NCBI RefSeq assembly: GCF_011059185.1
Contig: NZ_JAALFE010000002.1
Location: 186,001-250,000, forward strand
From: Paragemmobacter kunshanensis
GTDB lineage: Bacteria; Pseudomonadota; Alphaproteobacteria; Rhodobacterales; Rhodobacteraceae
DNA: 64,000 bases
Direction: 5' to 3'
Below are positions 12,180 through 53,131 of the stretch, piece by piece. Each line of letters begins with the position of its first letter. Position 1 is the first letter of the stretch. The notes beneath the pieces were generated by a model. The model worked only from the letters and a program-made list of their open reading frames with translations, did no database searches and was not told the DNA's origin. A program made the translations under genes and the position numbers.

Positions 12180-13388
12180 ATGCCCGCTGCCCGCGAGAGA
12201 GACAACCGCCTGCCCGTGACCGTGCTTTCGGGCTTCCTTGGCGCCGGAAAGACCACGCTTCTGAGCCATGTACTGAACAACCGGCAGGGGCTGCGGGTGG
12301 CGGTCATCGTCAATGACATGGCCGAGGTGAATATCGATGCCGATCTGATCCGCGCGGGGGCGGAGTTGCATCAGGCGGAGGAGAAGCTGGTCGAGATGAC
12401 CAATGGCTGCATCTGCTGCACGCTGCGCGACGACCTGCTGTCGGAGGTGCGCAAGCTGGCCGAGGCGGGGCGGTTTGACCATCTGCTGATCGAATCGAGC
12501 GGGATTTCGGAGCCGCTGCCGGTGGCCGCCACCTTCGATTTCCGCGATGCAGAGGGGGTGAGCCTGTCGGATGTGGCGCGGCTGGATACGATGGTGACGG
12601 TGGTCGATGCGGTGAACCTGCTGCGCGACTTTTCCAGCCACGATTTCCTGGCAGTGCGGGTGGAGGTGCCGGAAGGGGACGGGCGCACGCTGGTCAATCT
12701 GCTGGTGGAGCAGATCGAGTTTTCCAACGTGGTCGTGCTGAACAAGGTCAGCGATGCGGGACCCGCGCGGGTGGATGCGGCGCGCAAGATCATCGCGGCG
12801 CTGAACCCGGATGCGCGGGTGATCGAGGTGGATCGCGGCGCGGTGGCCTTGGGCGCGGTGATGGGGACGGGGCTGTTCGATTTCGACCGGGCGGCAGAGC
12901 ATCCGCTCTGGGCGAAGGAGCTTTACGGCTTTGCCTCCCATGTGCCGGAGAGCGAGGAATACGGGATCGAGAGTTTCGTCTTTCGCGCGCGGCGGCCCTT
13001 CGATCCGGCGCGGGTGCATGGCGTTTTGAATGGCGATTTGCCGGGGGTGATCCGGGCGAAGGGGCATTTCTGGCTGGCGACGCGGCCGGATTGGGCGGCG
13101 GAGTTTTCGCTGGCCGGGGCGGTGAGTTCGGTGTCGCCCCTCGGGCGGTGGTGGGCGGCGGTGCCGCAGGCGCGCTGGCCCAAGGGGGGCGAGGGCTTGG
13201 CCTCGGTGCAGGCGGTGTGGTCGGAGCCTTGGGGGGATCGGCGGCAGGAGATCGTCTTCATCGGGCATGGGATGGACCGTGCGGCGATCGTGGCGGCGCT
13301 GGAGGGGGCCTTGGTCACGGCGGAGGATTTCGCGCCATGGGAATGGGAGGGGATGGCGGATCCCTTCCCGCTGTGGCGGGCGGCATGA
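12180..13388 (+). CDS. G3E (CobW/COG0523) family GTPase, likely Zn metallochaperone
   Basis: 402 residues. N-terminal GTPase with Walker A GFLGAGKT (18-25), the family metal motif CICC at 77-80 ([11 protein letters not shown]), SSGISEP and a guanine-recognition LNKVSD segment (about 183). A CobW C-terminal domain follows (about 265-400; HFWLATRPD). No His-rich stretch is present. COG0523 proteins under Zur control (ZigA/ZagA/Zng1-like) deliver zinc to enzymes when zinc is scarce; the Zur-like box just upstream supports that role here rather than cobalamin synthesis, since no cob genes are nearby. The next small gene overlaps its stop by ATGA. Confidence 0.88.
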
Positions 13389-13630
13389 GGAACCTGCGGT
13401 CGCCCAAGGCGCGGTGGCGCGCGGGTTGTCCGATGGCGGCACATGACGCTTTGCCTGCGCCGCTGCGGTTGTGGCTGAAGAAGGCGGCGCTGCCGTGGTC
13501 GGCGGTGAGCGCGCGGCGGGTCTGGGAGCGGGAAGTGCGGCGGTCGGGGGTGGAGGGGGCCTTGCGGCGGCTGGCGGAGGTGGAGGCGGCGACTTTGGCA
13601 CGGGAGCGGGGTCGGGGAGGCGAAATCTGA
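13385..13630 (+). CDS. Small basic protein, DUF6525-like
   Basis: 81 residues, Arg-rich, translationally coupled to the GTPase gene through an ATGA overlap. The core [18 protein letters not shown] and the preceding [12 protein letters not shown] resemble a small Rhodobacterales family I know as DUF6525; that name is from memory and uncertain. No membrane segment or known motif. The coupling suggests it shares the zinc-dependent regulation of its neighbour. Its last codons overlap the first hairpin of the array that follows. Confidence 0.65.
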
Positions 13631-13736
13631 CGCAGATTTCGCGACGATTTCTGCACGCAGAAATCGGGGGGATGCGGAAGGTATGGGGTCCGGAATTTGT
13701 GTCAAATTCCGGCGCGGTTTTTGCGTCAAAAACCGC
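13621..13736. repeat. Array of four short hairpins (copy 1)
   Basis: Four perfect stem-loops in a row: 13621-13641 (CGAAATCTG, loop ACG), 13645-13666 (CGATTTCTG, loop CACG), 13690-13712 (CCGGAATTTG, loop TGT) and 13714-13736 (GCGGTTTTTG, loop CGT). Stems are 9-10 bp and AT-rich inside, GC at the base. The array sits between convergent genes and ends one base before the metR stop. The first two units are identical to those in the array at 44441. Confidence 0.9.
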
Positions 13737-13737
13737 T

Positions 13738-14643
13738 TCAGCCGCGTTGGAGTTTGACGGGTTCGGTGCGGCCCAGTCGCAGGAAATGCGCCATGAAGGG
13801 TTTGGCGGCATCCTCTTGGCGCGTGGCGGCGTAGAGGCGGCGGGTGATCGTCTTGGGGCCCAACGGCCGCGTGATGTAATCGGCGTTGCTGCGGATGTCG
13901 CGCAGCACCCAGTCGGGCAGGACGGCCACGCCGCGGTTCGATCCCACCAGCATCAGGATGACGGCGGTCAGTTCCACCGGGCGCTGGCCGCGGGGTTCGA
14001 TCTTGGCGGGTGTCAGGATTTCGGTGAAGACGTCCAGCTTGTCGCGGCTGACGGGGTAGGTGATGAGGATTTCGTCGCGGAAATCCTCGGCCCCGATCCA
14101 GTCTTTCGAGGCCAGCGGGTGGTCCTTGGAGGCGACGAAGGTGGGGTGGTAGTCGAAGAGCGGGTTGTAGACCACCCCGTCGAGGCGAAGGGGGTCGGAG
14201 GAGATGACGAGGTCCACCTCCTCGCGCAACAGCGCGGGGATGGCGTCGAAGGCGAGGCCCGCGCGGATGTCCACGTCCACTTCGGGCCAGGCGTGGCGGA
14301 ATTGTTCCAGCACGGGGAAGAGCCAGTCGAAGCAGGCGTGGCATTCGATGGCGATGTGAAGCCGCCCCGTCTTGCCGGATTTGAGGGCGCGGAATTCCTC
14401 TTCCAGCGCGTCTATTTCCGGCAGGATGCGTTCGGCGAGTTTGAGCATGCGTAGGCCCGCTGCGGAGAGGCGCATGGGTTTGGAGCGGCGGACGAAAAGC
14501 TCGATCCCCGCCTGATCTTCCAGCCCCTTCACCTGATGGGAGAGGGCGGATTGCGTCATGTTCAGGATTTCGGCGGCACGGGCGAGGCCACCCGCCTGAT
14601 GGATGGCGCGGATGGTGCGGAGGTGGCGGAATTCGAGATGCAT
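13738..14643 (-). CDS. metR: LysR-family regulator, probable MetR
   Basis: 301 residues. N-terminal winged helix-turn-helix (about 1-60; GGLARAAEILNMTQSALSHQ) and a LysR substrate-binding domain (about 90-290) with IECHACFDWLFPVLEQFR, which matches the MetR co-inducer region (homocysteine in E. coli). It is divergent from metF, the classical arrangement for MetR control of methionine synthesis. ATG at 14641-14643 gives the normal LysR N-terminus MHLEFRHLRTI. The metR-metF gap of about 95 bases contains only an imperfect TTCAT...ATGAA dyad (14658-14683) as a possible site. Confidence 0.88.
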   Translation of the reverse strand: MHLEFRHLRTIRAIHQAGGLARAAEILNMTQSALSHQVKGLEDQAGIELFVRRSKPMRLSAAGLRMLKLAERILPEIDALEEEFRALKSGKTGRLHIAIECHACFDWLFPVLEQFRHAWPEVDVDIRAGLAFDAIPALLREEVDLVISSDPLRLDGVVYNPLFDYHPTFVASKDHPLASKDWIGAEDFRDEILITYPVSRDKLDVFTEILTPAKIEPRGQRPVELTAVILMLVGSNRGVAVLPDWVLRDIRSNADYITRPLGPKTITRRLYAATRQEDAAKPFMAHFLRLGRTEPVKLQRG

Positions 14644-37717: not shown

Positions 37718-37742
37718 GGATGGGCGGCGCGCCCATCCTACG
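37718..37742. repeat. REP-like hairpin ending CCTACGG
   Basis: GGATGGGC-GGCGC-GCCCATCC followed by TACGG, between bamD and recN. The same end (CCCTACGG) follows the hairpin at 51661-51684. Looks like a dispersed palindromic element. Confidence 0.55.
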
Positions 37743-42009: not shown

Positions 42010-43104
42010 ATGGATTGGCGCGGGGAACAAGGGGACGGGATCCTGCCGGGGCGGCGCCTGCGGGCGCGGGGGGCCCTGTCGAATGCGGCGGGGCGGTTCG
42101 AGGCGCATGGGGTGGAGGGGGTTGCCGATGGCTGGGAGCCGGTGGAGGCGCATCTGCTGCGGACCGAGGTGCGGGTGGAGCGGGCGCGGTCGGCGCTGAG
42201 TTTCAACCGATCACCCGATCTGCCCTTCGACCGGTCGGTCAACCCCTATCGGGGCTGCGAGCATGGCTGCATCTATTGTTTCGCCCGGCCCAGCCATGCC
42301 TTTCTGAACCTGTCGCCGGGGCTGGATTTCGAGACGCGGCTGATCGCGCGGCCGGGCATCGGGGCGGTGCTGGCGCGGGAGTTGCGGGCGAAGGGGTATC
42401 GGGTGGCACCGACTGCGATCGGGACGAATACCGACCCCTATCAGCCTTGCGAGGCGGAGTGGCGCGTGATGCGTGAGGTGGTGGAGGTTCTTGCGGGGTG
42501 CGATCATCCGCTGGCGATCACCACGAAGGGGACGTTGATCGAGCGGGATCTGGATTTGCTGGGGCCGATGGCGGCGAAGGGGCTGTTGCGGGTCGGGGTG
42601 TCGGTGACGACGCTGGAGGCGGGGCTGTCGCGGCGGATGGAGCCGCGCGCTGCGCTGCCCGCGCGGCGGCTGGAGGTGATCCGGCGGCTGACGGCGGCGG
42701 GGGTGCCGGTGCGGGTGATGGTGGCGCCGGTGGTCCCCGGTCTGACGGATCACGAGTTGGAGGGGATCCTGGCCGCGGCGCGGGAGGCGGGGGCGGTGGG
42801 GGCGAGCTGGATCATGCTGCGCCTGCCTTTGGAGGTGGCGGGTTTGTGGCGCGACTGGCTGGAGGTGGCGGAGCCGGGGCGCGCGGCCAAGGTCATGGCG
42901 CGGCTGCGCGAGGCGCGCGGAGGGAAGGAATACGATGCCGAGTGGGGCAAGCGGATGCGGGGCGAGGGGCTGTTCGCCGAATTGATCGGGCAGCGCTTCG
43001 CGAAGGCGGTGGCGCGGCTGGGGCTGGCGGAGGCCCTGCCCGCGCTGCGCTGCGATCTGTTCCGGCCCCCCGCGCGGGCGGGGGACCAGTTGAGCCTGTT
43101 CTAG
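42010..43104 (+). CDS. Radical SAM protein, SplB-like (PA0069 family)
   Basis: 364 residues. Radical SAM cluster motif CEHGCIYC (about 77-84) in NPYRGCEHGCIYCFARPSHA, followed by ITTKGTLIERDLDLL and a SAM-binding GVSVTT segment; no SPASM-type extra clusters are evident. The family (PA0069/Rv2578c-like) is related to spore photoproduct lyase and is often annotated as a DNA repair photolyase-like protein. The LexA box directly upstream supports a DNA damage role. ATG at 42010 places the box in the promoter. The last bases overlap purD, tail to tail. Confidence 0.85.
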   Translation: MDWRGEQGDGILPGRRLRARGALSNAAGRFEAHGVEGVADGWEPVEAHLLRTEVRVERARSALSFNRSPDLPFDRSVNPYRGCEHGCIYCFARPSHAFLNLSPGLDFETRLIARPGIGAVLARELRAKGYRVAPTAIGTNTDPYQPCEAEWRVMREVVEVLAGCDHPLAITTKGTLIERDLDLLGPMAAKGLLRVGVSVTTLEAGLSRRMEPRAALPARRLEVIRRLTAAGVPVRVMVAPVVPGLTDHELEGILAAAREAGAVGASWIMLRLPLEVAGLWRDWLEVAEPGRAAKVMARLREARGGKEYDAEWGKRMRGEGLFAELIGQRFAKAVARLGLAEALPALRCDLFRPPARAGDQLSLF

Positions 43105-44363
43105 AGGGCGCGCCAGCCGATATCGCGGCGGCAGAAGCCTTCGGGCCAGTCGATGGCATCGACCATGGCATAGGCGCGGGCCTGCGCCTCGGCCAGGGTT
43201 GCGCCGCGGGCGGTGACGTTGAGGACGCGGCCGCCGGTGGCGGCGATCTGGCCATCCCTTTCGGTGGTGCCGGCGTGGAAGACCATCTGGGACGAAGTTT
43301 CGGGGAGGGTGTCGAGGCCCTTGATGATGCTGCCCTTGCCGTAGCTGCCGGGGTAGCCTCTTGTCGCCATGACGACGGTGAGGGCGTGGTCATCGGCCCA
43401 GTTGACGCGGGCCTGGTCGAGGCGGCCCTCGGCGCAGGCGAGCAGGAGGTCGAGCGCCTGGGCGCCGAGGCGCATCATCAGCACCTGGCATTCGGGGTCG
43501 CCGAAGCGGGCGTTGTATTCGACAAGGCGGGCGCGGCCGTTCTCGATCATCAGGCCTGCATAGAGGACGCCCTGATAGGGCGTGCCGCGGCGGGCCATTT
43601 CGCGGATGGTGGGGAGGACGATGTCCTCCATCGCCTGCCGTGCGATGGCATCGGTCAGGACGGGGGCGGGGCTGTAGGCGCCCATGCCGCCAGTGTTGGG
43701 GCCGGTGTCGCCATCGCCCACGCGCTTGTGGTCCTGCGCGGTGCCGATGGGCAGGGCATGGGTGCCGTCGGTGAGGATGAAGAAGGAGGCTTCTTCGCCT
43801 GCCATGAATTCCTCGATCACCACTTCCGCGCCGGCCGCGCCGAATTCGCCGCCGAACATGTCGTCGATGGCGGCGAGGGCCTCGGCCTCGGTCATGGCGA
43901 CGATGACGCCCTTGCCTGCGGCGAGGCCGTCGGCCTTGACCACGATGGGGGCGCCCCTGGCGGTGATATAGGCGCGGGCGGGGGGGGCTTCGGTGAAGCG
44001 CGCCCAGGCGGCGGTGGGGGCGGCGCAGGCGTCGCAGATGTCCTTGGTGAAGGATTTGGAGGCTTCGAGCCTGGCGGCTGCCGCCGAGGGGCCGAAGGTG
44101 AGGAAGCCTGCGGCGCGGGTGGCATCGGCCACGCCTGCGGCGAGGGGGGCCTCTGGCCCGACGATGACGAAGTCGATGGCGTTTTCCTCGCAGAAGGTGA
44201 CGACGGTCTGGCCATCGAGGATGTCGATATCGGCGCATTCGGCGAGGAGCGCGATGCCCGCATTGCCGGGGGCGACGATGAGGCGGTCGGTCTTGGGGTT
44301 CTGCTTGACCGCCCAGGCGAGGGCATGTTCGCGCCCGCCGCTGCCGAGGATGAGGATGTTCAT
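43101..44363 (-). CDS. purD: Phosphoribosylamine--glycine ligase
   Basis: 420 residues. Second step of purine synthesis, ATP-grasp enzyme. Landmarks: MNILILGSGGREHALAWAVK, VIVGPEAPLAAGV, FGPSAAAARLEASKSFTKDI (about 90-109), IVVKADGLAAGKGVIVA (about 138-154), GPNTGGMGAYSPAP (about 225-238) and RFGDPECQVLMMRL (about 283-296). Complete and normal length. Stop overlaps that of the radical SAM gene. Its upstream region holds the second four-hairpin array, shared with xseA. Confidence 0.96.
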   Translation of the reverse strand: MNILILGSGGREHALAWAVKQNPKTDRLIVAPGNAGIALLAECADIDILDGQTVVTFCEENAIDFVIVGPEAPLAAGVADATRAAGFLTFGPSAAAARLEASKSFTKDICDACAAPTAAWARFTEAPPARAYITARGAPIVVKADGLAAGKGVIVAMTEAEALAAIDDMFGGEFGAAGAEVVIEEFMAGEEASFFILTDGTHALPIGTAQDHKRVGDGDTGPNTGGMGAYSPAPVLTDAIARQAMEDIVLPTIREMARRGTPYQGVLYAGLMIENGRARLVEYNARFGDPECQVLMMRLGAQALDLLLACAEGRLDQARVNWADDHALTVVMATRGYPGSYGKGSIIKGLDTLPETSSQMVFHAGTTERDGQIAATGGRVLNVTARGATLAEAQARAYAMVDAIDWPEGFCRRDIGWRAL

Positions 44364-44440
44364 GGCGGATGCCCCCTGCGCTGGATGGGTGGGGCTATAG
44401 GGGGGGTGGGGGCGTGGTGCAAGGGGATGGGGCGGGAAGG

Positions 44441-44558
44441 CGAAATCTGACGCAGATTTCGCGACGATTTCTGCACGCAGAAATCGGGGGGAGAGGGCGC
44501 GCGGGGTGGGGGCGGAATTTGCGTCAAATTCCGCTGCGATTTGTGTGTCACAAATCGC
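44441..44558. repeat. Array of four short hairpins (copy 2)
   Basis: 44441-44461 (CGAAATCTG, loop ACG), 44465-44486 (CGATTTCTG, loop CACG), 44512-44534 (GCGGAATTTG, loop CGT) and 44536-44558 (GCGATTTGTG, loop TGT). The first two units are base-for-base the same as at 13621, while units 3 and 4 keep stem length and loop pattern but differ in arm sequence with the complementary change. Here the array lies between divergent purD and xseA, so it is not a simple terminator. Confidence 0.92.
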
Positions 44559-44621: not shown

Positions 44622-46184
44622 ATGGACCTGTTCGAAGACACCCCCAGCCCGCCGCAGGGCAACCAGCCGGAATATACCGTGTCGGAGCTTTCCGGCGCGG
44701 TGAAGCGGGTGATCGAGGGGGAATTCGGCCTTGTCCGCGTGCGGGGCGAGGTGGGGCGGGTGTCGCGGCCTGCGTCGGGGCATCTGTACTTCGACCTGAA
44801 GGATGACCGGTCCGTCATTGCGGCGATCAGCTGGAAGGGGCAGGTCGCGCGGATGCAGGTCCGGCCCGAGGAGGGGATGGAGGTTGTCGCCACGGGGCGG
44901 ATGACCACCTTTCCTGGGCAGTCGAAATATCAGCTGATCGTCGAGGATGTGGCCCCTGCAGGGGCCGGTGCCCTGATGGCGATGCTGGAGAAGCGGCGGG
45001 CGGCGCTGGCGGCGGAGGGGCTGTTCGATGCGGATCGCAAGAAGGCAATTCCGTTCCTGCCGGGGGTGATCGGGGTTGTCACGTCTCCGAGCGGGGCGGT
45101 GATCCGGGATATCCTGCATCGCCTGCGCGACCGTTTTCCGCGCCATGTGCTGATCTGGCCTGTGGCTGTGCAGGGGCAGGCCTGCGCGCCGGAGGTGGCC
45201 GCCGCGATCCGGGGGTTCAACGCGATCGAGCCGGGGGGCGCGGTGCCGCGGCCGGACCTGATCATCGTGGCGCGGGGGGGCGGGTCGCTGGAGGATCTGT
45301 GGGGGTTCAACGAGGAGATCGTGGTGCGCGCGGCGGCGGCGTCGCGCATCCCGCTGATTTCCGCCGTGGGGCATGAGACGGATACGACGCTGATCGACTT
45401 TGCCGCCGACCGGCGCGCGCCGACGCCCACGGCGGCGGCCGAGATGGCGGTGCCGGTGCGGCTGGAATTGCTGGCGGCGGTGGATGGGTTCGGGGCGCGC
45501 GCCGTGCGGGCGGCGGTCAGCGGCGTGGGATTGCGCGGGCAGCGCCTGCGCGACCTCGCCCGCGCCCTGCCGCGACCCGAGGCGCTGGTGCAGGGGGCGG
45601 CGCAGCGGATGGACCTGTGGTCTGGCCGGCTGGGCGCGGGGCTGGGGATGGCCGCGGCGCGGAAGCGGCAGGTCTATGAGGCGCGGGCGGGGCTGGTGCG
45701 GCCCGAATTGCTGCTGGGGCTGGTGGCGCATCGGCGGCGCGATCTGGCGGAGCGGGCGGCGAAGGTCGCGGTGCTGGCGGAGCGGGCGGTCGAGCGCAAG
45801 GGCGCGCGGCTGGACGCGCTGGCGGGGCGGCTGCGCCCGTCGCTGGCGCGGATCGTGGGCGATGCCGCGCGGGATGTCAGGAAGGGGCGCGAGCGGCTGG
45901 ACGCGCTGGCCGAGCGGCTGGAGGCGGTGCCGGCGGTGCGGTTCGCACAGGCGCGGCAGCGGATGGAGGCGCTGGACCGGACGCGGATGACGCTGGGCTA
46001 TGCCGAGACGCTGAAGCGCGGTTTCGCCGTGGTGCGGGGCGATGGGGCGGTGGTCACGTCCAGGGCCGGGGCGGAGAAGGCGGCCGTGCTGGAGATCGAG
46101 TTCACGGATGGGCGCCTGGCGCTGGGCGGGCGGCCCAGGGCGCGCAAGGCGGGCGAGGGGCCGGAGCAGGGATCGCTCTTCTGA
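44622..46184 (+). CDS. xseA: Exodeoxyribonuclease VII large subunit
   Basis: 520 residues. Degrades single-stranded DNA with XseB. N-terminal OB fold (about 15-110; VSELSGAVKRVIEGEFGLVR, GHLYFDLKDDRSVIAAISWK), catalytic region (IGVVTSPSGAVIRDILHRL, PDLIIVARGGGSLEDLWGFN, ISAVGHETDTTLIDFAADRR, TPTAAAE) and a long coiled coil (about 290-455). All present. ATG at 44622 has GGAG six bases upstream; ATG at 44616 is too close to it. xseB is not adjacent. Confidence 0.95.
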   Translation: MDLFEDTPSPPQGNQPEYTVSELSGAVKRVIEGEFGLVRVRGEVGRVSRPASGHLYFDLKDDRSVIAAISWKGQVARMQVRPEEGMEVVATGRMTTFPGQSKYQLIVEDVAPAGAGALMAMLEKRRAALAAEGLFDADRKKAIPFLPGVIGVVTSPSGAVIRDILHRLRDRFPRHVLIWPVAVQGQACAPEVAAAIRGFNAIEPGGAVPRPDLIIVARGGGSLEDLWGFNEEIVVRAAAASRIPLISAVGHETDTTLIDFAADRRAPTPTAAAEMAVPVRLELLAAVDGFGARAVRAAVSGVGLRGQRLRDLARALPRPEALVQGAAQRMDLWSGRLGAGLGMAAARKRQVYEARAGLVRPELLLGLVAHRRRDLAERAAKVAVLAERAVERKGARLDALAGRLRPSLARIVGDAARDVRKGRERLDALAERLEAVPAVRFAQARQRMEALDRTRMTLGYAETLKRGFAVVRGDGAVVTSRAGAEKAAVLEIEFTDGRLALGGRPRARKAGEGPEQGSLF

Positions 46185-46205: not shown

Positions 46206-46249
46206 CAAAAATCTTGGAAGATTTTTGCAAATTTCTTCGAAGAAATCTG
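46206..46249. repeat. Pair of 22-base palindromes between convergent genes
   Basis: CAAAAATCTTGGAAGATTTTTG (46206-46227) has 10-bp arms; the next, 46228-46249, is CAAATTTCTT-CGAAGAAATCTG with one mismatch pair. They abut, fill the 67-base space between the xseA stop and the following gene's stop, and are related to those at 52152. Confidence 0.8.
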
Positions 46250-47864: not shown

Positions 47865-48252
47865 GGGACCGGGGGTTTTTCACCCCCGGACCCCCGCAGG
47901 ATTTTTTTCGAACAGGTGAAGGGGTGAGGGGTGCGGGGGCATGGTCCGGGCGGGGGATGGTGGAGGGGGGGGGACCGGGGGTTTTGCACCCCCGGACCCC
48001 CGCAGGATATTTCTTGAACAGGTGAAGGGGTGAAGGGTGCGGGGGCATGGTCCGGGCGGGGGGATGGTGGAGGGGGCGGGACCGGGGGTTTTGCACCCCC
48101 GGACCCCCGCAGGATATTTTCCGAACAGATGAAGGGGTGAGGGGGTTGCGGGGGCTGGCATGGTCGGGGCGGGGGGATGGTGGAGGGGTGGGACCGGGGG
48201 AGGTGTCCATGGGTCCGCGCAGGACATTTGGGGAGAAGAGGGAAGGTGGGGG
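47865..48252. repeat. Tandem repeat of ~106-112 bp, three units plus a decayed fourth
   Basis: Units begin GGGACCGGGGG at 47865, 47971, 48078 and 48190. Each has a hairpin (CCGGGGG, loop TTTTTCA or TTTTGCA, CCCCCGG), then ACCCCCGCAGGAT, then a TATTT...GAACAG[A/G]TGAAGGGG motif, then a GGGGGCATGGTCCGGGCGGG tail. Units 1-3 are nearly identical, unit 4 keeps the start and motif in altered form. The array fills the divergent space between the AlkB-like gene and the secreted protein gene; the 560-base gap holds nothing else I can see. Confidence 0.9.
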
Positions 48253-48359: not shown

Positions 48360-48899
48360 ATGTGGCGGTTTGTGATGGTGCTGTGGTGGCTTGCCCTTCC
48401 TGTACTGGCGGCGGAGACGGGGGACCGGGTTACGCCGGCTTTCGGGCTGGATCCGGGATCGGGGCTGCGATCCTTTCATCTGCCCGACGCGCTGGTGCCC
48501 GGAGGGCGCTTGCTGCGGGTGCAGTTCTATCCGGGTTACGTCGCCAGGCCCTGGGATGCGACCTTTGTGGTCCTGTCGAATGTGGATGAGCGCCCGGCTG
48601 TGCTGCGCCACGAGGTCCGGCTGTGGAGGCGCGAGGCGTGGCGGCCGCGCGACGCGGGGGAGCGGGTGTTGAGCGCGGCGGAGATCGAGCGGATCCGGCA
48701 GGCGTTCCGGGCTGTCCGGCTCTGCGCCACGGCGGCGGAGCGGCCCGCGTTTTCGGATGGGCCGATGGTGCAGATCGAGTTTGCCAACGAGACGCGCTAT
48801 TGTTTCGCGTCGCGTGCGCCGCAGCGGGAGGGGGAGCCCGAATTCGGCGCGTTTCTGGATCTTGTGCGGGGTCTGGCCGGGGTCGAATGGCCGGGTTGA
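48360..48899 (+). CDS. Secreted hypothetical protein
   Basis: 179 residues. N-terminus MWRFVMVLWWLALPVLAAET is a signal peptide with cleavage after VLAA. Mature part is beta-rich in feel with two cysteines (RLCATAAE, RYCFAS). No family recognised. Start is uncertain: ATG at 48360 has GCGAGGG about six bases upstream; ATGs at 48324 and 48339 are possible. It follows the tandem repeat and ends about 100 bases before ftsY. Confidence 0.65.
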   Translation: MWRFVMVLWWLALPVLAAETGDRVTPAFGLDPGSGLRSFHLPDALVPGGRLLRVQFYPGYVARPWDATFVVLSNVDERPAVLRHEVRLWRREAWRPRDAGERVLSAAEIERIRQAFRAVRLCATAAERPAFSDGPMVQIEFANETRYCFASRAPQREGEPEFGAFLDLVRGLAGVEWPG

Positions 48900-52151: not shown

Positions 52152-52195
52152 CAAATTCGTTCGAACGAATTTGCAAATTTCTTCGAAGAAATTTG
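52152..52195. repeat. Two adjacent perfect 22-base palindromes
   Basis: CAAATTCGTTCGAACGAATTTG (52152-52173) and CAAATTTCTTCGAAGAAATTTG (52174-52195). Both are fully self-complementary and abut exactly; they end just before the GST stop. The second differs from the second palindrome at 46228 at a single base. AT-rich islands in high-GC surroundings. Confidence 0.92.
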
Positions 52196-52901: not shown

Positions 52902-53032
52902 GGATGCTCCTGTTCCTGCTTGTAATGATCATGCGGGTCGGGGACGGATCGGCAAGGCGCAAAATGCGCCACTGCCCTGTGCGCCGTTGCGCGGGCGTTG
53001 ACCTTTCGGACCAAGGGGCGTATCGGGCGGAT

Positions 53033-53082
53033 GTGGCGCTTTGTTACCGGATTGCGGGCCACGTTAAACATTCCGCTAAAGA
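53033..53082 (+). ncRNA. SAM-II riboswitch aptamer upstream of metZ
   Basis: Core: GTGGCGCTTTG (53033 on), then CCGGATTGCGG, then GGCCACGTTAAACATTCCGC and TAAAG. Stem P1 is GTGG/CCAC, the pseudoknot stem is CGGA (53048-53051)/TCCG (53072-53075), and the strongly conserved CCACGTTAAACA...CGCTAAAG string of SAM-II RNAs is present. SAM-II elements regulate metA/metX/metZ in alphaproteobacteria, as here. An intrinsic terminator follows, so transcription attenuation at high SAM is the likely mode. Confidence 0.88.
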
Positions 53083-53098
53083 GGGTTCGGGCATCGCG

Positions 53099-53131
53099 CC
53101 CCGGCACCTCTGGGTTTGCCGGGGCTTTTTC
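53099..53131 (+). terminator. Regulatory terminator downstream of SAM-II aptamer
   Basis: CCCCGGC (53099-53105), 12-base loop, GCCGGGG (53118-53124), then CTTTTTCTT. Located between the riboswitch and the metZ start at 53152. A competing antiterminator is not obvious by eye. Confidence 0.8.

Follow-up and report, generated by a model that had tools for sequence, protein, structure and literature searches.

The window analyzed, a single stretch of DNA of 64,000 nucleotides, contains two arrays (array 1, 13620–13736; array 2, 44440–44558) that each consist of four perfect stem–loops with 10-bp arms and arm gaps of 3, 2, 3, and 3 nt (Table 1). Four-hairpin arrays had been reported here in a preliminary description, and their presence is confirmed, but each array begins one base to the left of the position it gave (13621 and 44441). 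Hairpins 1 and 2 are the same in both arrays, as had been described, and this identity extends six bases beyond them (GGGGGA). The arms of hairpins 3 and 4 indeed differ with pairing kept, hairpin 3 in its outermost pair only and hairpin 4 in three pairs. What the preliminary description missed is the orientation: in both arrays, the tip (TGACGCA or TGCACGCA) is read on the plus strand in hairpins 1 and 2 and on the minus strand in hairpins 3 and 4. Each array is therefore inverted, with the layout + + spacer − −. The usual gap between the hairpins of a pair is 1 nt, which corresponds to a 24-nt period; in arrays 1 and 2, hairpin 2 is a 22-nt variant and the gap is 2 nt. Tandem palindrome pairs occur six times in the window, four times within arrays 1 and 2, and are absent from each of 10 Markov shuffles.

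Table 1. Hairpin arrays, second-class palindrome pairs, and neighboring genes in the window
Feature	Position	Strand	Remarks
Array 1 hairpin 1 (outer), stem word AAATC, tip TGACGCA	13620..13642	+	perfect 10-bp inverted repeat
TGA stop codon of left DUF6525 gene, in hairpin 1 tip	13628..13630	+	ORF 13091-13630; PF20135 E=2.5e-22
Array 1 hairpin 2 (inner), 22-nt variant, tip TGCACGCA	13645..13666	+	
Array 1 spacer	13667..13689	.	between hairpins 2 and 3
Array 1 hairpin 3 (inner), TGTGTCA on + (TGACACA on -)	13690..13712	-	
Array 1 hairpin 4 (outer), end 1 nt from LysR gene stop	13714..13736	-	
LysR-type regulator gene facing array 1	13738..14643	-	PF03466/PF00126
purD (phosphoribosylamine-glycine ligase), start 76 nt from array 2	43101..44363	-	GARS domains
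Array 2 hairpin 1 (outer), same as array 1 hairpin 1	44440..44462	+	
Array 2 hairpin 2 (inner), same as array 1 hairpin 2	44465..44486	+	
Array 2 spacer	44487..44511	.	
Array 2 hairpin 3 (inner), stem word GAATT	44512..44534	-	
Array 2 hairpin 4 (outer), TGTGTCA on +	44536..44558	-	
xseA (exonuclease VII large subunit), start 63 nt after array 2	44622..46184	+	PF02601
Second-class tandem pair, CTTGGAAG / CTTCGAAG centers	46206..46246	.	5 nt from facing stop
Second-class pair CAAA..TTCGAA..TTTG, two different stems	52152..52195	.	4 nt from GST-like gene stop

As previously recognized, array 1 lies between convergent genes, and array 2 lies between the divergent genes purD and xseA. Because the stop codon of the DUF6525 gene is inside the tip of hairpin 1, array 1 fills the gap between two convergent stop codons. 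The C terminus of the DUF6525 protein (...RGRGGEI*) falls inside this hairpin; the G003 ortholog of the protein extends to ...RDEVWRA* (DNA read by eye).

Copies of the family were sought with the pattern CGNNNNNTGACGCANNNNNCG, which does not require pairing, and with its reversal as a control. The genome that carries the window has 109 matches and none to the control, and by eye about 8 of the roughly 100 matches listed are non-palindromic. Between 20 and 175 matches are present in 18 of the 19 genomes of the genus (controls 0–6), and one small genome has a single match. Elsewhere in the family, 246 genomes from other genera have 0–16 matches each (controls 0–10), which is background, and those listed look non-palindromic by eye. 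These counts bear out the earlier proposal that the arrays belong to a dispersed palindrome family. Among named genomes, the tandem pattern was found in at least 105 stretches; 77 of the 80 listed are labeled Rhodobacter, Rhodobacteraceae, Gemmobacter straminiformis, or Tabrizicola sp. TH137, and the other three (Paenibacillus, Rhodococcoides, and Acidimicrobiia) pair poorly and seem to be chance matches. G. straminiformis and R. amnigenus are now placed in Paragemmobacter, and from the named matches we infer that this is the genus of the 19 genomes.

Outside the genus, a covariance model of 47 nt, built from 70 dimers, detects related dimers (E ≤ 0.001) in 14 of 196 genomes. The 20 loci fetched from six of these genomes have the same tandem design with other tips, several of them as full quartets, and 13 of the 20 arrays are located within 15 nt of a facing stop codon. 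A plasmid collection queried with array 2 yielded four weak partial matches, none over 80% of the query. One exact pattern match was found among viral contigs, in a long ORF of a phage-like contig, and was attributed to chance, given that a sequence can fit the pattern without being paired.

For the analysis of gene context, 147 arrays were kept (38 from the genome of the window, 16 from G010, 15 from G011, and 78 from named genomes), 138 of them distinct. Clusters were left out if they had no tandem pair, were <300 nt from the end of the locus, or had no called gene on either side. Genes were called by a codon-usage script that misplaced the end of the DUF6525 gene, and some distances, including that of array 1, are wrong as a result. 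To be accepted by the hairpin finder, a hairpin had to have no more than one mismatch among 8 pairs (5 of 8 pairs sufficed in relaxed versions) and A/T at 6 or more of the 10 positions of its stem core, so that the pairing and AT-richness of the stems are partly built in.

The arrays are intergenic, and some extend 11 nt into the end of a gene. The 138 distinct arrays are found in convergent (61), codirectional (65), and divergent (12) contexts. In 97 of them, an array end is located −12 to 10 nt from a facing stop codon; random intergenic placement gives a mean of 41.9 and a maximum of 54 in 1000 trials. This proximity is seen for 55 of 61 convergent, 42 of 65 codirectional, and 0 of 12 divergent arrays. 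Where at least 60 nt of spare room is available (n = 97), 61 arrays are that close to a stop codon versus 10.8 expected, and only 3 of 89 sides that face a start codon are that close. The stop codon is the TGA of a hairpin tip in 18 cases, and array 1 is an additional case that was missed by the gene caller. We count against a role at gene 3′ ends the 12 divergent arrays, array 2 among them, that have no facing stop codon, the 23 codirectional arrays that are not near one, and the terminator-like hairpin (by eye) that separates gene and array at L110, L138, and L274. Divergent arrays are nevertheless the exception and most arrays abut a facing stop codon, so the earlier contention that termination cannot be the common purpose of the arrays is less supported.

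The + + spacer − − layout is present in 85 of the 147 arrays, and the remainder are mostly partial or extended. Spacers measure 14–123 nt in 77 quartets, with 57 of them at 29 nt or less, and an extra hairpin of at least 6 bp is found in 13 of the 77 (2.3 in shuffles). Near-identical pairs of hairpins 1 and 2 recur among arrays. The stems draw on 29 distinct 5-bp words, 27 of which (505 of 511 hairpins) lack a pyrimidine-to-purine step. Neighboring hairpins share a stem word in 0 of 228 pairs, versus a mean of 22.7 and a minimum of 8 after permutation; one adjacent GAATT pair in G002 is an exception to the rule. Within 78 quartets, identity between the two inner stems is rare (3 versus 14.2 expected), and identity between the two outer stems is somewhat low but not significantly so (5 versus 9.0). 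Crossed identities are common (22 versus 9.8, and 11 versus 6.3). Identical neighboring stems would make one long palindrome, and the available text of one paper on REPs (PMC3733652) discusses SbcCD cleavage as a possible reason for REP heterodimers.

A second class of tandem palindromes, with 22-nt units of the form CAAA..TTCGAA..TTTG, is present in 18 of the 19 genomes of the genus, at up to 61 pattern matches per genome and with none in G002. Among the matches listed, 0 of 23 pairs are identical, versus 5.0 expected.

The constraint on the stems was estimated from 18 array pairs of G010 and G011, which were chosen because both genomes carry an array and which cannot, for that reason, show gains. 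Changes were found at 19 of 1339 stem, 13 of 205 loop, 51 of 564 spacer, and 471 of 19682 flank positions, and the stems therefore diverge six times less than the spacers. Length changes in the array units of these genomes include two 24-nt losses between tip copies. At L223/L243 and L229/L249, a 24-nt deletion between neighboring TGACGCA tips is seen in one of two close species. Such a tip-to-tip deletion leaves a chimeric, broken hairpin and is one route of array decay.

Across 158 ortholog pairs, which share arrays, some in both directions, and thus are not independent (pairs with differing hairpin order were dropped), 332 changes of stem pairs are compensated, 66 are one-sided, and 3 are of other kinds. 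The ratio of compensated to one-sided changes is 0:10 at flank identities of 97% or more, 8:14 at 92%–97%, 130:25 at 85%–92%, and 194:17 below 85%. The earlier statement that arm changes keep pairing thus holds over longer divergence but not in the closest genomes, where single breaks come first; the rising ratio is the course expected when such breaks are later compensated. In 518 hairpins picked at a threshold of at least 5 of 8 pairs, only 29 of 3626 cells in the seven inner pairs are mismatched, which means that the stems are 99% paired. In alignment A1, 98.0% of cells are paired, and 313 cells are changed on both sides compared with 102.6 after shuffling. Double changes that affect two to four pairs at once were found in 97 of 619 hairpin comparisons between orthologs.

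Upstream of xseA, an array is kept, partly decayed in places, in 10 of the 18 genomes with xseA; some of these copies are broken in part, and one is truncated by the end of a contig. The stems of unit 4 at this site read ATTTG, ATTTC, or GTTTC, with both arms changed together. At the site of array 1, an intact or decayed quartet adjoins 5 of 18 LysR orthologs (G000, G001, G004, G010, and G011). Thirteen sites are without the quartet, and 12 of them were read (G009 was left out). In nine of the 12, the 130 nt that follow the LysR stop codon contain another hairpin with 7 bp or more (shuffled mean 0.9, maximum 4); in 7 of these nine it lies within 20 nt of the stop codon (shuffled 0.2), and the remaining 3 sites have no such hairpin. 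A second empty site has two GC hairpins, one beside each stop codon (by eye). Overall, no array is present at the orthologous place in 119 of 722 comparison rows, many of which are repeated xseA and LysR sites.

All 13 array places on contigs C5, C6, and C7 of G010 have counterparts in G011 by coordinates, 12 of which were aligned, and this correspondence indicates slow turnover. One place on contig C3 of G010 has no G011 counterpart among the matches listed, and L255, the stretch retrieved for comparison, could not be aligned with it, so that an array may have been gained or lost there. In the genome of the window, one quartet is present at two loci, L085 and L099, in inverted orientation relative to each other, and the two spacers agree at 20 of 22 bases. 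The similarity between the loci covers 134 bases (89.6%), from one hairpin foot to within 15 nt of the other, and the flanks are unrelated. The quartet was thus copied whole between the two loci, by what could be transposition or conversion, and this one event lends support to past mobility of the family, which had been suggested earlier. The copying is not recent, because both places have arrayed orthologs in other genomes. A shared 14-mer was found in only five pairs among the 77 spacers, namely three pairs of G010/G011 orthologs, one pair of G000/G010 orthologs (L098/L226), and L085/L099. Inversion of arrays in situ was also considered; the word orders in two ortholog pairs (L179/L257 and L153/L201) are suggestive, and the spacers do not prove inversion.

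Structure predictions were made for both nucleic acids. Array 1 folded as RNA has a z-score of −5.40, and array 2 folded as DNA has a z-score of −7.79; in each case, 0 of 200 shuffles are as good. As DNA, the arrays are predicted to fold into separate hairpins. As RNA, array 1 is predicted to form hairpins 1–3, and hairpin 4 is drawn into pairing with the spacer. RNA-level selection usually tolerates G–U pairs. In the ten core pairs of alignment A1, there are 288 double changes, one G–U, and two unpaired cells. No preference for G–U on the transcribed strand was found in codirectional arrays, whose 13 mismatches are 3 G–T, 3 A–C, and 7 others; these strand counts are low, and transcription enters convergent arrays from either side. 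The scarcity of G–U mildly favors selection on DNA or on both strands. When the whole window was searched against Rfam, neither array had a match at gathering level. A search of the surroundings of array 2 at E ≤ 1 gave nothing credible, the best of the weak matches being to a microRNA family (E 0.13) and to a GRIK4 3′UTR element (E 0.51). With no credible Rfam match and no G–U preference among these few mismatches, the processed RNA suggested earlier as one possibility finds no support here. The arrays also do not have the GC-rich hairpin and U-tract of intrinsic terminators. Their stem cores are AT-rich, and over the 20 positions that follow hairpin 2, the share of T at any one position is 6%–25% in 220 half-arrays, with no averaged T-tract; single spacers can hold a T run (L082).

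Several characteristics of known repeats are found in this family. Its members are palindromes of 20–40 bp that are dispersed, extragenic, and high in copy number, as is general for REPs, and the 85 arrays with inverted units around a spacer resemble BIMEs and REPINs in this regard. In position alone, the 97 arrays close to a facing stop codon match the translation-stalling REPs of E. coli, which are characterized by a location within 15 nt of a stop codon together with ribosome stalling. The REPs and BIMEs of enterobacteria and pseudomonads are likewise short extragenic palindromes of high copy number that are paired in inverted orientation. In contrast to these, each half of an array consists of two hairpins in tandem at a period of 24 nt, the conserved part is the hairpin tip and not a GTAG foot, neighboring stems differ, and no RAYT over the cut-off accompanies the family. 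Specifically, none of the 19 genomes of the genus has a RAYT (Y1 transposase, PF01797) over the cut-off, with one weak match in G006 (E 7.8e-4), in a search whose control was positive in 5 of 14 known genomes. Neither the GTAG nor the CGTC tag is among the 40 commonest 4-mers at the outer stem foot of 220 ends, where the counts include GGGG 29, GAAG 15, CTAG 8, and GACG (the complement of CGTC) 2; the inner foot was inspected only as a base profile. REPINs are two REP units inverted around a spacer and dispersed in one genus. The arrays share this inversion and the dispersion in one genus, but they have four hairpins and no RAYT over the cut-off, and of the 77 spacers, no more than two that are not orthologous to each other have a 14-mer in common.

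The available text of Di Nocera 2013 (PMC3733652) describes CGTC-tagged REPs as palindromic, mostly alphaproteobacterial, apparently without a dedicated transposase, and commonly heterodimeric in several families. Rhodobacter, Paracoccus, and Roseobacter are not mentioned in its main text. Compared with the repeats so described, the arrays lack CGTC at the outer stem foot and are tandem, not mostly head–head, dimers. In the accessible part of another paper (PMC12306157), E. coli REPs located within 15 nt of a stop codon number 260 of 496 (earlier study) or 446 of 4,072 (RepRanger). Hairpin clusters close to stop codons, for which poly-U is not needed, have been proposed as terminators, as far as the available portion of that report goes (PMC8355165); unlike the clusters portrayed there, the arrays form a family of repeats that have tips in common, are mirror-symmetric, and also occur between divergent genes. 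The family is REP/BIME-like with a distinct architecture, is not assigned to the GTAG or CGTC superfamilies, and has no RAYT over the cut-off, and the arrays look like a previously undescribed relative of known hairpin repeats. No REP-like family was found in the literature on Rhodobacteraceae as judged by titles and the beginnings of abstracts, and no paper was found that combines Paragemmobacter or Gemmobacter with both palindrome and repeat terms. The arrays thus add a REP-like family to a clade without one in the literature searched, to the extent that titles and abstract openings reveal.

Dispersion, layout, stop-codon position, pairing constraint, compensation, the stem rule, and the copy event point to a module for gene 3′ ends. 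The most likely role is that of a bidirectional gene-3′-end element, and we regard its chances as falling just short of even. Such a role fits most copies because most adjoin a stop codon. Since the element is mirror-symmetric and its tandem pairs face inward, either incoming gene meets the same type of hairpin pair after its stop codon. Once the terminating ribosome leaves, the hairpin pair would fold in the 3′UTR, where it could block 3′-to-5′ exonucleases. It may also stop RNA polymerase or delay the last ribosome, effects of the kind that have been reported of E. coli REPs near stop codons. The differing stems would allow each hairpin to fold alone and would avoid a long palindrome liable to cutting or deletion.

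Among the competing explanations, the least doubtful, though still rather unlikely, is that the arrays might act as DNA behind transcription units, either as extruded cruciforms or as a binding array for gyrase, a nucleoid protein, or another palindrome-binding protein. In E. coli, the BIMEs that gyrase binds likewise lie behind transcription units. An action at the DNA level is consistent with mismatches in which G–U is as rare as other kinds and strand-symmetric, with the mirror symmetry of the element, with the 27 stem words that lack a pyrimidine–purine step, which is an A-tract-like DNA property, and with the copies in divergent promoter regions. However, a DNA site would not need exact stop-codon abutment, and the tips differ between genera while the design stays and change fast in close species (13 of 205 positions). 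We consider it unlikely that the family is mainly a non-autonomous selfish repeat, whose hairpins would be recognized by a putative mobilizing enzyme and whose position at 3′ ends would reflect tolerated or targeted insertion. The whole quartet shared by L085 and L099 amid unrelated flanks, the range of 1 to 175 pattern matches per genome, and the recurrent hairpin 1–2 pairs would be expected of such a repeat. Against this stand the lack of a Y1/RAYT over the cut-off in all 19 genomes, the slow turnover between G010 and G011, and the fact that old copies stay paired through compensation, which a dead transposon would not need.

It is improbable that the arrays are U-less tandem-hairpin intrinsic terminators and nothing more. 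Their location directly after stop codons, the extra spacer hairpins, the other hairpins at most empty array-1 sites, and the comparable clusters proposed as terminators in the part of that paper available (PMC8355165) agree with this explanation, but the divergent copies, the lack of an average T-tract, and the arrays behind a terminator-like hairpin do not. Moreover, arrays number in the tens per genome, so that most genes lack one at their end. We judge it very improbable that there is no structural selection at all and that palindromes are corrected by template switching or by gene conversion among copies. This process could produce the double changes of two to four pairs and would leave hardly any G–U intermediates, as observed, but it accounts neither for the sixfold lower divergence of stems relative to spacers nor for stop-codon abutment, and conversion would create the identical neighboring stems that are missing from 228 pairs.

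A wider reading, which we put forward tentatively and regard as doubtful, would join these observations into a design found throughout the Rhodobacterales. Gene ends would be capped by mirror-symmetric hairpin sets that use a small vocabulary of purine-then-pyrimidine stems, in which neighboring and nested stems differ. The design would have been reinvented, or kept with other tips, in several genera and in the TTCGAA second class, and would be selected at the DNA level, where a cruciform or a bound protein would mark the border from one transcription unit to the next. How REP-like palindromes are kept perfect, and at which level, RNA or DNA, they act, are long-standing questions. The 19-genome genus offers orthologous copies at graded divergence, with double compensation, a strong rule against identical neighbors, stop codons built into hairpin tips, and sites with substitute hairpins. 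Together, these make the choice between RNA and DNA directly testable in cultured species.

Other hairpins and structured elements were observed in the course of this analysis. At two array-1 sites without the array (L055 and L059), a hairpin repeat, GTAGGATGGGCA..TGCCCATCCTAC, with a GTAG foot is located in the array's place. This repeat looks like a GTAG-type REP, though the genus has no RAYT over the cut-off, and a similar core is present in the window at 37718–37738. In G151, a tandem hairpin dimer (L287) follows an apparent tRNA gene instead of a protein gene (by eye). Three near-identical hairpins, CCGGGGGTTTTNCACCCCCGG, occur in the window at 47869–47889, 47975–47995, and 48082–48102, with a spacing of ∼106 nt, in a long stretch without a called gene that precedes a gene at 48360. 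Finally, positions 53023–53100 of the window contain a SAM-alpha riboswitch (RF00521, 50.2 bits) on the plus strand.
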